DNA of 64,000 nt, from NCBI RefSeq assembly GCF_022834715.1, contig NZ_BQKC01000001.1, positions 1-64,000 on the forward strand. Direction: 5' to 3'. The position numbers and the translations under genes are program-made. This document shows, one piece after another, positions 32,257-50,452 of the stretch (the first letter of the stretch is position 1; every line of letters begins with the position of its first letter). The notes beneath the pieces are model-generated. The model was not told where the DNA came from and made no database searches. It saw nothing but the letters and a program-made list of their open reading frames with translations. This DNA is from Granulimonas faecalis. GTDB lineage: Bacteria > Actinomycetota > Coriobacteriia > Coriobacteriales > Atopobiaceae.

Positions 32257-32298
32257 ACCCGGACACTTTTGTCCCAATGGTCGGGCACTTCTGTCCCA
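32257..32298. repeat. dispersed 42-base repeat, copy 1
   Basis: Two direct half-units of the form CGG-R-CACTT-Y-TGTCCCA in tandem. The whole 42-base block is repeated at 38808-38849 with one difference. It lies right after dnaB. Confidence 0.9.
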
Positions 32299-34242: not shown

Positions 34243-34341
34243 CCGTTTGGTACTTTTTCGCGAACAAGGGGACCGAAAACCACCAAACGGCGGGTTGTTT
34301 GGTGGTTTAGATGAGTTTTGTAATCGAAAAGTACCAAATGG
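34243..34341. repeat. nested inverted-repeat element
   Basis: Outer arms: CCGTTTGGTACTTTTTCG (34243-34260) against CGAAAAGTACCAAATGG (34325-34341), with one mismatch and one bulge. Inner arms: AAACCACCAAAC (34277-34288) with its perfect complement at 34297-34308. TTTGGT therefore occurs four times in alternating orientation. It resembles a small MITE-like or multi-site operator element in the purA upstream region. Confidence 0.8.
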
Positions 34342-38807: not shown

Positions 38808-38849
38808 ACCCGGACACTTTTGTCCCAACGGTCGGGCACTTCTGTCCCA
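38808..38849. repeat. dispersed 42-base repeat, copy 2
   Basis: Same block as at 32257-32298 with one base changed, same orientation, also directly downstream of a gene stop. Followed by a perfect terminator-like hairpin. Confidence 0.9.
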
Positions 38850-46019: not shown

Positions 46020-47606
46020 ATGCATCCTGTCAACACCGTGCCGGCCGCAGACGGCGATACCCTGCACGAGGAGTGTGGGGTCTTCGGCGTCTGGGCCCCG
46101 GGCCTCGACGTGGCCCGCATGACGTACTTCGGCCTCAAGGCCCTCCAGCACCGCGGGCAGGAGTCCGCCGGCATCGCCGTGGGCAACGGCTCCACGGTGC
46201 TCGTGCGCAAGGACGAGGGCCTGGTGGACCAGGTCTTCACCGACGCCGACCTCAAGGCCATGCCCGGCAAGGTCGCCTGCGGCCACGTGCGCTACGGCAC
46301 GAGCGGCGGTGGCGGCTGGGAGGGCGCGCAGCCGCACCTCTCCACCATCAACGACACCATCATCGCCCTGGCGCACAACGGCACCCTGGTGAACACCGAC
46401 GCCATGCGTCGGGAGCTCATCAACATGGGCATCCCGTTCCGCACCCACACCGACTCCGAGGTGGCGGCCAAGCTCATCGGCTACTTCACCCAGGAGACCC
46501 ACCGCATCCGCGAGGGCATCGCCAGCACCATGGCCATGCTCGAGGGTGCCTACGCCATGGCCCTTGTGCGCGAGGACGCCATCTACGCCTTCCGAGACCC
46601 CGACGGCATCCGCCCCCTCGTGCTCGGCGAGCTGCCCGGTGGCAAGGGTTGGGTCGTGGCCAGCGAGACCTGCGCTCTGGACATCGTTGGGGCCTCCTAC
46701 GTGCGCGACGTCGAGCCGGGCGAGATCATCAAGATCAGCGACGACGGTCTCGAGAGCCAGCAGGAGTACCGCTCCGCGGTGCCGTCCCCCTGCATCTTCG
46801 AGCAGGTCTACTTCGCCCGCCCCGACTCCGTCATGGGAGGCGGCACGGTCTACTCGGCCCGTCGCCGCATGGGCGAGCGCCTGGCCCGGGAGGCGCCGGC
46901 CGATGCAGACCTCGTGATCGGCGTGCCCGACTCCGGCCTGCCGCCCGCGGAGGGCTTCGCCCGGGCCAGCGGCCTGCCGTTCGGCGAGGGCCTCATCAAG
47001 AACCGTTACGTGGCGCGCACCTTCATCCAGCCCACCCAGGAGCTCCGTGAGATGGGCGTGCGCCTCAAGCTCAACGCCCTCAAGGACGTCGTGGCCGGCA
47101 AGCGTCTCGTGCTCGTTGACGACTCCATCGTGCGCGGCACCACCATGGCTCAGATCGTCCGCATGCTGCGCGACGCCGGTGCGGCCGAGGTGCACGTGCG
47201 CATCAACTCGCCGGAGGTGCGCTGGCCCTGCTTCTACGGCATCGACACCGACACCCAGGACCAGCTCATCAGCGCCAACAAGTCGGTGGACGAGATCCGC
47301 GAGTTCATCGGGGCCGACTCCCTGGCGTTCCTGTCGGTGGAGGGGCTGCTCGCCTCCGTGCCGCCGGCGCCCGGCCACTGCTGCGCCTGCTTCACCGGCG
47401 ACTACCCCGTGGCCATCCCGGAGGTCTTCTCCCGGGGCAGCTTCCTCGAAGGCTACGAGCCCACCAACCTCGCCGACCCGTCGCCGACGGCCCTCATGTC
47501 GGTGCAGGAGGTGGCCGACGTCTTAGAGGTGTGCCGCGAGGAGTCCGAGAACGCCTGGGGCCACGAGGTCGTGGGTGCCTCCGGCCGCGGCGAGCAGGAG
47601 GGCTGA
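46020..47606 (+). CDS. purF: amidophosphoribosyltransferase
   Basis: Committed step of purine synthesis: PRPP + glutamine to phosphoribosylamine. The 528 aa product is of the Bacillus type. The N-terminal nucleophile Cys19 sits in HEECGVFGVW, implying an 18-residue propeptide. The PRPP loop is LVDDSIVRGTTM, and HCCACFTGDYP near 456-466 supplies Fe-S cluster cysteines. ATG at 46020 after GAGGAGAGAG. Directly followed by a palindrome array instead of purM. Confidence 0.97.
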   Translation: MHPVNTVPAADGDTLHEECGVFGVWAPGLDVARMTYFGLKALQHRGQESAGIAVGNGSTVLVRKDEGLVDQVFTDADLKAMPGKVACGHVRYGTSGGGGWEGAQPHLSTINDTIIALAHNGTLVNTDAMRRELINMGIPFRTHTDSEVAAKLIGYFTQETHRIREGIASTMAMLEGAYAMALVREDAIYAFRDPDGIRPLVLGELPGGKGWVVASETCALDIVGASYVRDVEPGEIIKISDDGLESQQEYRSAVPSPCIFEQVYFARPDSVMGGGTVYSARRRMGERLAREAPADADLVIGVPDSGLPPAEGFARASGLPFGEGLIKNRYVARTFIQPTQELREMGVRLKLNALKDVVAGKRLVLVDDSIVRGTTMAQIVRMLRDAGAAEVHVRINSPEVRWPCFYGIDTDTQDQLISANKSVDEIREFIGADSLAFLSVEGLLASVPPAPGHCCACFTGDYPVAIPEVFSRGSFLEGYEPTNLADPSPTALMSVQEVADVLEVCREESENAWGHEVVGASGRGEQEG

Positions 47607-47612
47607 GGAGGA

Positions 47613-47941
47613 CCTCCCGTGGGGCTTCTGCGGGTGGCAGTGGGGCTCGAACCACCCGGAGAACGTCCTGCGGGTGGCAGTGGACTACCAGACCACCCGG
47701 AGAAGCTTCCGTGGGTACTTTTCCACCCGGAGAAGCTTCTGCGGGTGCCGATGAGCCCACCGATCACCCGTAGATCGTTCTGCGGGTGCCGATGCCGCCC
47801 TGGACCACCCACAGAACGTTTTGTGGGTGGCAGTGGGCCCCCAAACCACCCATAGAACGCCTTGCGGGTACTTTTCCACCCACAGATGCTTCTGCGGGTG
47901 CCGATGAGCCCCCGGATGACCCGTAGATCGTTCTGCGGGCG
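47613..47941. repeat. left array of nine palindromic hairpin units
   Basis: Nine units of about 26 bases approximating CCACCCG-N-AGAA-NN-TTCT-G-CGGGTGG. Cores lie near 47613, 47652, 47693, 47723, 47764, 47805, 47846, 47876 and 47917. Spacers are not random: they are GGCAGTGG-type, GCCGATGAGCC-type or a short ACTTTT linker. Units 2-5 and 6-9 form two copies of a 153-base block. Arms covary: CCACCCACA with TGTGGGTGG in unit 6, against CCACCCG with CGGGTGG elsewhere. The array fills the space between purF and the nuclease-like gene. Confidence 0.95.
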
Positions 47942-47999
47942 TCGGCCCGTCTCGCCATCCGTCCATGGCCCGCGGCGTCGCCCTGACCGTCACCGTCAG

Positions 48000-48036
48000 G
48001 ATGCGGTCGGAAACCGGTCGGAACCCGGTCAGGGCC
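48000..48036. repeat. CGGTCGG-rich dispersed repeat, copy 2
   Basis: Three CGGTC motifs spaced by GGAA bases, similar to 27368-27420. It lies 20 bases before the nuclease-like gene and may include its promoter region. Confidence 0.45.
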
Positions 48037-48055
48037 GTCCTGTACCGTGGGTCCC

Positions 48056-49087
48056 ATGAGTACCGTGCTGTGCGACCTGGGTGCTTGGATCGTATACGCC
48101 TCTCGAGCCCCGTTCACCGTGATCCCGAAGGAAGAGGCGGCCCCTATCCTGCGTGACGCCGCGTGCGGCGCCCGACAGGCGGAGGGGCTCTGCCGGCTGC
48201 CGGCCTTCCAGGAGCTCCTCGACCTCGCCCACTGGCTGGCCGAGACGCCCCGGGACCGTCGGGTCGTACCGGACCTCCTCGTCACCGACGACCGACGCCG
48301 CCATGGGTCGGGCGCCTGCCGTCCCCATCTTTCTCCCAAGGGCATCGGGCCGTTCTCCCTGCTCCGCATGGAGGGCCCCTTCGCCGAGGCGGAAGAGCCG
48401 CTGTACGTGGTGCCGCCCGACCTCTACCTGCTCATGCGCGCCCGGGAGCTGGATGTGACCGCCTTGGCGATGGTGGCGACCACGCTGTGCTCGACCTATG
48501 TGCCGAGACCTGACCTGGGTGAGTGCCCGGGCAGACGCGAGCCCCTTGTGGGGAAGGCGGTCTTGGAGGGCTTCTCCGAGAACCTGCCTGCCCGGTGTCA
48601 GGGCGCCTCCACGTTGCGCCGCGCCCTTGCCATCACGGCGGAGGGGTCGCGGTCGCCCATGGAGACGGCACTGAGTGTGGGGCTCTCCGCACCGGGGCCC
48701 CTCGGCGGCTACGGTCTCCCGCTTCCCCGGCTCAACCACCGCGTCGACATCCCCCAGGAGCTCGGCAGGCTCATAGGGGGCCAGCGGACGATGTTCCTCG
48801 ACCTCTGCTGGCCCGAGGCGGGATGGGCGGTGGAGTACGACAGTGCTATGCACCACAGCGAGGGGCGGGCCGTCGCCAAGGACCGCCGGCGCCGCGCCGT
48901 GGCCGACGCCCTGGGGATCTCCATCGTTCCCTGGGACAACCTCACGGTGGCGGACCCGGTCTCACTGGGCCTTGCCGTCGAGAGCCTCGCCGGCCACCTG
49001 GGTTGCCCGTTCTCTTGGGACCATTCCCTCTCGCAGGCGCGACGTGGGCTCCATGACCGGATCATGGGGCCCCACAGGTTCTGGTGA
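48056..49087 (+). CDS. DUF559/Vsr-like PD-(D/E)XK-type protein inside palindrome arrays
   Basis: A 343 aa soluble protein. The C-terminal 145 residues resemble the DUF559/Vsr-like nuclease fold of actinobacterial AbiEi-like proteins: SRSPMET (Glu203), then FLDLCWPEAG (Asp249) and WAVEYDSAMHH (Glu260, His266-267), then a basic KDRRRR helix. The first 190 residues are unrecognised, with several Cys (6, 37, 46, 88, 145, 157, 181). The ATG at 48056 is chosen; GTG 48047 is an alternative and neither has a good ribosome binding site. The gene lies between two arrays of the same palindrome and splits purF from purM. Nuclease activity and any action on the palindromes are inference. Confidence 0.6.
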   Translation: MSTVLCDLGAWIVYASRAPFTVIPKEEAAPILRDAACGARQAEGLCRLPAFQELLDLAHWLAETPRDRRVVPDLLVTDDRRRHGSGACRPHLSPKGIGPFSLLRMEGPFAEAEEPLYVVPPDLYLLMRARELDVTALAMVATTLCSTYVPRPDLGECPGRREPLVGKAVLEGFSENLPARCQGASTLRRALAITAEGSRSPMETALSVGLSAPGPLGGYGLPLPRLNHRVDIPQELGRLIGGQRTMFLDLCWPEAGWAVEYDSAMHHSEGRAVAKDRRRRAVADALGISIVPWDNLTVADPVSLGLAVESLAGHLGCPFSWDHSLSQARRGLHDRIMGPHRFW

Positions 49088-49119
49088 GGGGATAGGTGCG
49101 GGGCGGCCCGTCGGGGGTG

Positions 49120-49297
49120 CCGCCCGCAAAAGCTTCTGCGGGCGGCGGCAGGCCTCCGGATCACCCGTAGAACGTTCTGCGGGTGGGAACGGCGCCCCAG
49201 ACCACCCGTAGAAGCTCTTGCGGGTACTTTTCCACCCGTAGAAGCTTCTGCGGGTGGCGGCGGGCCTCAAAATCGCCCGCAGAAGCTTTTGCGGGTG
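49120..49297. repeat. right array of five palindromic hairpin units
   Basis: Five units of the same family as at 47613-47941, at 49120, 49162, 49202, 49232 and 49274. Unit 1 has fully paired arms CCGCCCGCA and TGCGGGCGG. Unit 4 is a near-perfect 26-base palindrome with centre AGAAGCTTCT, unit 2 has AGAACGTTCT. Units 3 and 4 form the same doublet with an ACTTTT linker seen twice in the left array. Begins 32 bases after the nuclease-like gene and ends about 90 bases before purM. Confidence 0.95.
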
Positions 49298-49387
49298 GTG
49301 CCGTCCTCGATGGGACGGCCTGCCGTCTCGCGGGGAGGAGTCCCCCAATGGGATAAGGTTGGGGGAGCAGAGAGAGACGGGAGAGAC

Positions 49388-50452
49388 ATGAGCGAGCACA
49401 TGAGCTATGCCGACGCCGGCGTGGATGTGGACGAGGGCGCCCGCGCCGTGGACGCCATCAAGGGGGCCGCGGCCTCCACGGACCGCCCTGGCGTCATGGA
49501 GGGGTTGGGCGGCTTCGGCTGCCTGTTCGACGCGGCGCCGTTCAAGGCCATGGAGCACCCGGTGCTCGTGAGCGGCACCGACGGCGTGGGTACCAAGCTG
49601 GCCCTGGCCCAGCGTCTGGGCCGCAACGACACCGTGGGCGAGGACCTCGTGGCCATGTGCGCCGACGACGTGGTGGTCACCGGCGCCGAGCCGCTGTTCT
49701 TCCTGGACTACGTGGCGGTGGGCAAGCTCCGCGCCGAGGAGATGGCCCAGGTGGTGGGCGGCATCGCCGCGGGGTGCCGCAAGGCCGGCTGCGCCCTCAT
49801 CGGCGGCGAGATGGCCGAGCACCCCGGCGTCATGGCCGCGGACGACTACGACCTCGCCGGCTTCTGCGTGGGCGTGGTGGACGCGCCCAAAATGCTGGGC
49901 AAGGACAACGTGCGCGAGGGCGACGTCATCCTCGGCCTGGCCTCGAGCGGCATCCACTCCAACGGCTACTCCCTCGTGCGCGCGGCCGTGACCGACCGCA
50001 TGGACGACGCCGGGCTGCTGGAGCCCCGCGCCGAGCTGGGAGGCGAGTCGCTGGCGGACGCTCTGCTGGCGCCCACCGCCATCTACTCCGGCGCCGTGGT
50101 GCGGGCCCTCGCGGCGGGCGCCCACGTGCACGCCCTGGCCCACATCACGGGCGGCGGCATCACCGAGAACCTCGACCGTGCCATGCCGGCCGATCTCGAC
50201 GCCCTGGTGGAGCGCGGCGCCGACGGCTCGGTGGCCTGGGACGTGCCGCCGGTGATCGGCTACGTGAGCCGCGCCGCCGGCCTCACGCCCGACGAGGCCT
50301 TCAAGACCTTCAACATGGGCGTGGGCATGGCCGTGGTCTGCGCGCCCGAGGACGCCGAGCAGGTCTCCGCGGCCTTCGCCGAGCAGGGCTTCCCGACGTT
50401 CGCCGTGGGCACCGTGGTGCCCGGCGAGGGCAAGGTGCGCTACACGGCGTAG
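49388..50452 (+). CDS. purM: phosphoribosylformylglycinamidine cyclo-ligase
   Basis: AIR synthetase, fifth step of purine synthesis; 354 aa, normal length. SYADAGVDVDEGARAV opens the protein, then SGTDGVGTKL, MCADDVVVTGAEPLFFLDY, GGEMAEHPGV and ITGGGITENL follow in order. ATG at 49388 after GGGAGAGA. It is normally adjacent to purF and purN; here each junction is occupied by an accessory module. A terminator follows. Confidence 0.97.
   Translation: MSEHMSYADAGVDVDEGARAVDAIKGAAASTDRPGVMEGLGGFGCLFDAAPFKAMEHPVLVSGTDGVGTKLALAQRLGRNDTVGEDLVAMCADDVVVTGAEPLFFLDYVAVGKLRAEEMAQVVGGIAAGCRKAGCALIGGEMAEHPGVMAADDYDLAGFCVGVVDAPKMLGKDNVREGDVILGLASSGIHSNGYSLVRAAVTDRMDDAGLLEPRAELGGESLADALLAPTAIYSGAVVRALAAGAHVHALAHITGGGITENLDRAMPADLDALVERGADGSVAWDVPPVIGYVSRAAGLTPDEAFKTFNMGVGMAVVCAPEDAEQVSAAFAEQGFPTFAVGTVVPGEGKVRYTA

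Follow-up and report, generated by a model that had tools for sequence, protein, structure and literature searches.

The sequence analysed here, called the window, is the whole stretch of 64,000 nucleotides at positions 1 to 64,000 of contig NZ_BQKC01000001.1 of Granulimonas faecalis. In it, a gene of a predicted nuclease family sits between two arrays of a 26-bp palindrome, and we found that the pairing of genes of this family with palindromic repeats specific to each locus is general, though not present in every member. An earlier interpretation made from the letters of the window (hereafter, the sequence-only reading) had described nine palindrome units to the left of the gene and five to the right, which direct reading confirmed, one of the left units being degenerate; what could not be seen from the window is that such pairing extends across the family and involves a different repeat from locus to locus. 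The locus is composed as follows.

Positions 46020 to 47606, plus strand: left neighbour, presumably purF (named from its translation).
Positions 47613 to 47942, no strand: left palindrome array, with eight 26-nt palindromes at 47652-47942 and the degenerate ninth at 47613-47637.
Positions 48056 to 49087, plus strand: open reading frame (ORF) of the 343-amino-acid nuclease-family protein, between the two arrays.
Positions 49120 to 49298, no strand: right array, made up of five palindromes that belong to the family of the left array.
Positions 49388 to 50452, plus strand: right neighbour, presumably purM (named from its translation).

The consensus of the palindrome is CCACCCGTAGAANNTTCTGCGGGTGG. 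Its units are separated by linkers of 4 or 15 nt, which gives periods of 30 and 41, and the centre alternates between GC and CG in most units, as had been described. With up to three mismatches, a 24-nt consensus matched the window 16 times at nine sites, seven of them on both strands; all 16 matches lay inside the two arrays and none was obtained in 100 dinucleotide shuffles, so that chance is excluded for the arrays. A known RNA was rejected as an explanation of the array: the best Rfam match (dinG RNA, 47701-47779, E 0.15) reached 26.1 bits, below the gathering score of 46.9, and was taken as chance. As single-stranded DNA, both arrays folded far more stably than their shuffles, the left at z = -5.7 and the right at z = -9.5. 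The sequence-only reading had also taken compensated changes in the arms as a sign of selection on the hairpin, and this did not hold up well. Over the genome's 45 units, of which 44 are distinct, the arms paired in 85.2% of cells compared with 84.0% when partners were shuffled, and 21 two-sided changes were counted compared with 18.0 (standard deviation 2.8) in shuffles. Covariation is thus weak, barely above shuffles, and so is the inference drawn from arm compensation, although the palindrome itself is not in doubt: sliding the partner dropped pairing to 39-52%, showing that the register is real. Position 8/19 is T.G in 24 of 44 units, so that many units are slightly asymmetric. Among the window units inspected, non-systematically, many carry GTAG inside the arm and not at the foot of the hairpin.

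The gene family is widespread and multi-copy in Coriobacteriales. It was matched in 56 of 80 genomes of this order (E ≤ 1e-5), with up to 13 matches per genome, and the genome of the window (G000) holds nine loci, one of them broken in two. The idea that a single palindrome would co-occur with homologues of the gene failed, since the window palindrome (≤3 mismatches) was found in only one of the 80 genomes, the window's own, and in none of the eight other family loci there. The same search showed that the palindrome is not equally common in genomes lacking the gene. The absence from the paralogs ruled out one palindrome for all of them and raised a suspicion of coincidence, which was overturned by comparing the left with the right flank of each gene: the paralogs lack the window palindrome because loci tend to have a repeat of their own.

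In gapped blastn over 600 bp, the two flanks shared a repeat at E ≤ 1e-8 in 30 of 69 family loci, whereas none of the 45 control ORFs, 22 purF loci or 300 mismatched pairs of flanks did so. At E ≤ 1e-5 the respective counts were 35/69, 1/45, 0/22 and 0/300. An ungapped repeat of score ≥16 was common to both flanks at 34 of the 69 loci, compared with 2 of 700 mismatched pairs and 1 of 39 control ORFs. When six orthologous pairs were reduced to one member each, flank sharing stood at 29/63 (E ≤ 1e-8); within the window genome, five of nine family loci passed. The first 60 loci from other genomes were taken down the ranking of family matches, leaving out those near contig ends and those ranked lower; 20 of the 60, together with the eight own paralogs, had already been inspected when the association was first seen. 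Sharing at E ≤ 1e-8 was found in 19 of the 40 loci not inspected before and in 6 of the 20 inspected before. A further 40 loci, previously unseen, gave 11/40 compared with 0/77 control ORFs at E ≤ 1e-8 and 16/40 compared with 2/77 at E ≤ 1e-5; discrimination was poor at E ≤ 1e-3 (19/40 and 16/77). Matches at L060, L063 and L065, where the flanks overlap on short contigs, were artefacts and were left out; the two pieces of the split genes L040 and L125 were handled as one gene, and for L113 the better one of two tandem matches was used. L040, a paralog in the window genome (G000:C1:1352023-1353038), is split between two frames that overlap, and its flanks share no repeat. The genes with repeats were not restricted to a clade; in a quick tree they were scattered, with 20 changes, and 50 of 500 shuffles were as low. 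Integration linked to tRNA was likewise rejected as a general feature, tRNA genes having been found in 3 of 32 loci scanned (L041, L135 and L099). In L041 (2753-2839) and L135 (4331-4417), which hold family genes of different genera, the adjoining tRNA gene is tRNA-Leu(CAG).

The stretches shared between flanks are roughly 20-360 bp long, and many have inverted ends. The repeat of L103, for example, ends in TTTCTTTCGATAGGAGCAT...ATGCTCCTATCGAAGGAAA, that of L083 reads CTCGTTATTA...TAATAACGAG around CTGGGGTTTTACAAAACCCCAG, and L118 carries the near-perfect AGTTGTATGCGGAATCCGCATACAACT. Four loci (L130, L300, L296 and L284) have units of 119-361 bp that are 95-100% identical between both sides, and in L130 the 119 bp are identical. 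Within 450 bp of the gene, 60 of the 69 loci had inverted repeats of score ≥12, compared with 13 of 50 controls. We characterised the shared repeats in 50 loci at E ≤ 1e-5 (the flank tests of both sets together count 51). Most proved palindromic: in 36 of the 50, no more than 1 of 20 far segments equalled the shared repeat in this respect, and in the remaining 14 it was not distinctly so. Where the flanks share no repeat, an inverted repeat may still be present on one side, as in L101, L109 and L120; the one upstream of the L120 gene is perfect over 41 bp and encloses a loop of 20 nt. The internal motif CCGCAGGTAGA, or a close variant, occurs in otherwise unrelated repeat elements of different genera (L118, L123, L126, L129, L134, L135 and L124). 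The 8-mer ACCTGCGG was enriched beside family genes (17/69 near-flank sets compared with 1/69 far), though it was picked by ranking k-mers and this is not a blind test. A shared core, CCGCAGGTAGATGA, was rejected as a dispersed family: with one mismatch it gave 245 matches over the 80 genomes compared with 119 for the reversed control (68 and 56 genomes matched, respectively), a twofold excess and no clear family.

Three of the four repeat families searched genome-wide are clearly dispersed. The window palindrome (≤3 mismatches) matched its 2.23-Mb genome 24 and 25 times on the two strands, many of these matches being both strands of one site, compared with 0 and 0 for the reversed pattern. 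Besides the window, nine clusters of two to five units were found, mostly with the same 4- or 15-nt linkers, and every one of them is more than 3 kb away from any family gene. The surroundings were read for two of them: L032 lies between frames that we take to be leuB-like and threonine-dehydratase-like, and L034 between frames that are presumably murI-like and rph-like (all four named from their translations). The palindrome of the paralog L042 (G000:C1:1801504-1802520), AAAACCACCAAACGG, gave 20 matches compared with 1 in the control. Apart from those at the gene, they form seven clusters, one of which is inside the window.

Positions 34276 to 34290, plus strand: copy of the L042 palindrome family.

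The L083 repeat was found 12 times in genome G022, four of these at the gene, and 12 times in G046, with 0 and 1 matches in the controls.

Genes for RAYT-like transposases in the same genome provided an internal comparison. Three genes of the window genome match PF01797 (L048, L049 and L050), and none of the three loci contains the window palindrome, so that a RAYT was rejected as its owner. L049 (G000:C1:2023727-2024056) encodes a RAYT-like Y1 transposase with inverted GGGACAAAAGTG / CACTTTTGTCCC repeats on both sides; copies of GGGACAAAAGTG are found in the window at 32264-32297 and 38815-38848 (4 matches with up to one mismatch compared with 0.11 expected). L050 (G000:C1:1621491-1621820) is a second RAYT-like gene, with GTGACAG...CTGTCAC repeats on both sides. 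As a positive control, the two RAYT-like genes gave E 1e-20 and 3e-8 in the flank test. The third PF01797 gene, L048 (G000:C2:74450-74803), is followed by a TnpB-like frame and, judging by its sequence, resembles an ordinary IS200/IS605 element.

These RAYT repeats bear on whether the nuclease is involved at all. Ordinary REP- or MITE-like repeats could simply have gathered around poorly constrained accessory genes. Other REP-like families are indeed present in the genome, its intergenic spots can hold several of them together, and the L049 repeat also adjoins several clusters of the window palindrome; furthermore, the family was compared with random ORFs and with purF rather than with accessory genes of similar age. 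Passive gathering, however, would predict the same abundant families beside different genes, whereas the repeats were private (none of the 300 mismatched pairs at E ≤ 1e-5) and the window palindrome was missing from every paralog of its genome. Control ORFs of both sets together shared flanks in 0 of 122 cases at E ≤ 1e-8 and 3 of 122 at E ≤ 1e-5. We consider passive association improbable.

The protein is predicted to be a fusion of two domains. In the AlphaFold model (mean pLDDT 87.8, from nine sequences), residues 1-196 are AbiEi-antitoxin-like and residues ~200-317 form a Vsr/EDxHD-like nuclease domain. The latter matched I-Bth0305I, a homing endonuclease, with Z 9.3 (rmsd 3.0, 96 residues aligned), NGO0050 with Z 8.5 (rmsd 2.8, 91 aligned), Vsr with Z 7.2 (rmsd 3.4, 108 aligned) and TnsA with Z 6.1 (rmsd 3.8, 129 aligned). 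Two mitoribosomal chains, at Z 7.8 and 7.4, rank among these matches, and values of Z below 8 may reflect a mere common arrangement. Residues 1-196 modelled alone (pLDDT 84.4) matched the AbiEi antitoxin with Z 7.5 (rmsd 3.6, 123 aligned) and MenAT1 entries with Z 5.9 and 5.5. Neither model was matched by Foldseek at E ≤ 0.001, although the absence of a family from such lists excludes nothing. Our statements on the fold rest on VIA-align 2, a weak profile match, in which I-Bth0305I came first with E 0.008, and conserved residues. Over 69 members, E203 is conserved in 68, D249 in 67, E260 in 67, H267 in 66, D276 in 64 and R279 in 65; the E, D, H and D residues correspond to the EDxHD motif, and the putative catalytic positions are conserved as expected of working nucleases. 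The assignment as DUF559/Vsr-like made in the sequence-only reading was well matched by the predicted structure, including a PD-(D/E)XK-type fold like that of Vsr and I-Bth0305I, whereas its support from sequence was weak: the best Pfam match of the window protein had E 0.23, and at E ≤ 1 over 15 family members DUF559 appeared in 5 and MTES_1575 in 7. The window protein did not match the Y1/HUH domain PF01797, as expected from the statement that it is not a Y1 transposase. Taken together, these models point to an AbiEi-like domain fused to a Vsr/EDxHD-type PD-(D/E)XK nuclease.

Because of the AbiEi likeness, the palindromes could also be operators. The AbiEi-like part would then repress its own gene through them, the dispersed clusters would make up a small regulon, and the nuclease would act elsewhere, for example in defence. 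AbiEi antitoxins are described in PMC7319586 as binding inverted repeats and autoregulating through them. Periods of 30 and 41 nt would be near whole helical turns, and upstream inverted repeats of score ≥15 were enriched (20/69 compared with 3/50 controls). Those downstream were at least as frequent, however (33/69 compared with 4/50), and the two dispersed clusters whose surroundings were read lie between unrelated genes. The 119- to 361-bp units that are nearly identical on both sides of four genes are also unlike operators. The DNA-binding part of AbiEi is its other domain, and the N-terminal part of the family protein matches AbiEi residues 67-195, outside that part; the role of the N-terminal part is therefore uncertain. 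A defence element had been proposed before, but PADLOC gave no match for the window protein at E ≤ 1 (the best of four family members had E 0.028), and phage, defence and NCBI family models gave nothing for it at E ≤ 1, with some relatives having weak matches at chance level. We regard operator arrays as improbable.

We also compared homologous loci. L044 in the window genome and L095 in G046, a genome of another genus, encode proteins of 70% identity, and each locus has several TCAGTGAG/CTCACTGA palindromes, with CCGCTCACTGAGCAC common to both. The repeated palindrome is a better argument for this pair than its flank score. Likewise, L083 and its relatives L085 and L086 (56-57% identity) have CTGGGGTTTTACAAAA(C/G)CCCAG in common. 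A flank score ≥15 was reached by 8 of 8 pairs at ≥70% identity, six of them orthologues of two sister species whose whole neighbourhoods align, and by 31 of 2311 pairs at <40% identity, among them tRNA-Leu beside L041/L135 and a tract of four loci in two genomes of family f2. No exact match to the L095 repeat was found in the other 79 genomes, including the window genome, where L044 carries a diverged form.

Between G022 and G046, two species of one genus, repeat and gene have been gained or lost together at two sites. At the L083 locus (C12:817337-818917), G022 has repeat, gene and repeat, the gene sitting between two direct copies, whereas in G046 the gene is missing and one copy of the repeat is present, the outer sequence being conserved on both sides. 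At the L095 locus, G046 has repeat, gene and repeat (about 1797 bases), and G022 has about 135 unaligned bases without that repeat.

Such sites can be read as homing, in which the nuclease spreads its own gene. It would cut empty, pre-existing repeats, repair through flanking repeats would insert the gene, and the dispersed repeats would be landing sites rather than products. The homing endonuclease catalytic domain of I-Bth0305I and Vsr are among the best fold matches, and two direct repeats with the gene in G022 compared with one copy in G046 are what recombination-driven gain or loss would give. The related genes L083 and L086 of G022 have a common palindrome, and the best flank match was direct in 31 of the 50 loci. 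In the remaining 19 it was inverted, however, and the repeats differ between loci (0/300 mismatched pairs at E ≤ 1e-5), except for L083/L086 and the tract of four loci in the two family-f2 genomes; one repeat family therefore rarely holds several copies of the gene. L095 is absent from G022 along with both of its repeats, so that the site there held no repeat, and the repeats flanking a gene would be cut as well unless protected. We think homing unlikely, though less so than passive association or operators.

Many family members, then, lie between copies of a locus-specific palindrome, and for most of the palindromes searched further clusters occur across the genome. These data led us to a model, to which we give about an even chance, in which the nuclease recognises and propagates its cognate palindromes, as a REPtron does, with an enzyme unrelated to RAYT. 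The nuclease would recognise its palindrome, either as a duplex dyad or as an extruded hairpin, and would nick or cut there; repair by recombination or copying would then multiply the repeats in trans and, occasionally, the entire repeat-gene-repeat unit. More tentatively, the family may represent a second, independently evolved origin of REP-like repeats, in which each copy of a Vsr/homing-type nuclease with an AbiEi-like domain, specific for its own palindrome, would generate that palindrome family, spread it and move along with it.

Several results weigh against propagation by the nuclease, in addition to the weak covariation of the arms, the fold matches with Z below 8 and the doubt about the N-terminal part. 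The two-sided test was not passed at E ≤ 1e-5 by 34 of 69 loci in the first set and 24 of 40 in the second, nor by any of nine loci taken from named records, G022 accounting for two (the best, Adlercreutzia hattorii NZ_AP022829.1, had 2e-4). That repeats follow the gene among homologues rests on few pairs and is suggestive, not strong: 2 of 27 pairs at 40-70% identity reached a flank score ≥15, and L044/L095 just reach 15. G046, which lacks the L083 gene and has its relative L085, nevertheless retains dispersed copies of the L083 repeat, and the L095 repeat was found at one further site only in its genome. No target-site duplication or clean insertion of a repeat was found in the sites compared. 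Two other candidates for insertion polymorphism were unusable, the region being rearranged in L260 compared with G022 and the alignment stopping before the repeat in L266 compared with G046.

In 24 relatives, purM directly followed purF in 18 of 25 purF loci, with 12-510 nt between match ends; in the remaining seven, purM was not seen within the stretch covered. The family gene was matched in none of the 25.

To our knowledge, the arrangement of a gene with a private palindrome has a known counterpart only in transposases of an unrelated kind. PMC6006769 and PMC8266576 describe the REPtron as one gene with palindromic repeats at its sides, further copies of which are dispersed between genes, with a repeat family for each gene type and, in some genomes, several families; RAYT/TnpA-REP is proposed there and in PMC3733652 to recognise, cut and multiply the REPs. 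As far as these descriptions go, the likeness is close: the window gene has palindromes on both sides, the repeats are dispersed, each locus has its own and the genome holds several families. The likeness to REP/BIME arrays with RAYTs that had been proposed is thus supported by both the flanking and the dispersed repeats, and the sequence-only reading as a whole is partly supported. The family enzyme differs in being Vsr/EDxHD-like with an AbiEi-like domain and in lacking Y1/HUH; there are up to 13 family matches per genome, and the window palindrome has tens of copies, not hundreds. By organisation, then, the family resembles the REPtron, and it is not one by membership because the Y1 enzyme is lacking. 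In the full text searched in PMC, which leaves subscription papers and outside preprints uncovered, we found no described pairing of such a nuclease with palindromes (DUF559, REPtron, Coriobacteri- repeats), in agreement with the earlier remark that no system of this kind had been described.

Proof that the nuclease drives the repeats would justify placing the system in a separate class. As a counterpart of RAYT/REPIN driven by a nuclease, it might provide the enzyme that other REP families without a transposase lack; REP-type repeats would then be a convergent outcome and not a peculiarity of one transposase family. The many members with a private palindrome amount to many natural candidate enzyme-substrate pairs in one bacterial order, so that recognition and spread are directly testable, and if the proteins cut their own palindromes, new specific nucleases could be drawn from the family. 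For some families of REP-like palindromes no enzyme is known; thus, PMC3733652 describes CGTC-tagged REPs that are dispersed but have no link to a tyrosine transposase and no dedicated enzyme. The repeats described here differ from these, as far as that account goes, in that they can be tied to a nuclease gene.

The other likenesses concern single domains. With I-Bth0305I and Vsr the family shares the predicted fold of the C-terminal domain and the conserved E, D, H and D residues; it differs in having an N-terminal AbiEi-like domain and flanking palindromes and in that its gene has no intron or intein host gene. The AbiEi antitoxin of type IV toxin-antitoxin systems resembles residues 1-196 in fold, whereas the window protein is fused to a nuclease and its gene adjoins purF and purM, with no AbiEii toxin gene beside it. 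TnsA of Tn7 is a PD-(D/E)XK protein that acts as part of a transposase. The window protein resembles it in its predicted PD-(D/E)XK fold and differs in that the match is weaker than that with Vsr and in that the neighbours of its gene are purF and purM rather than TnsB/C partners.

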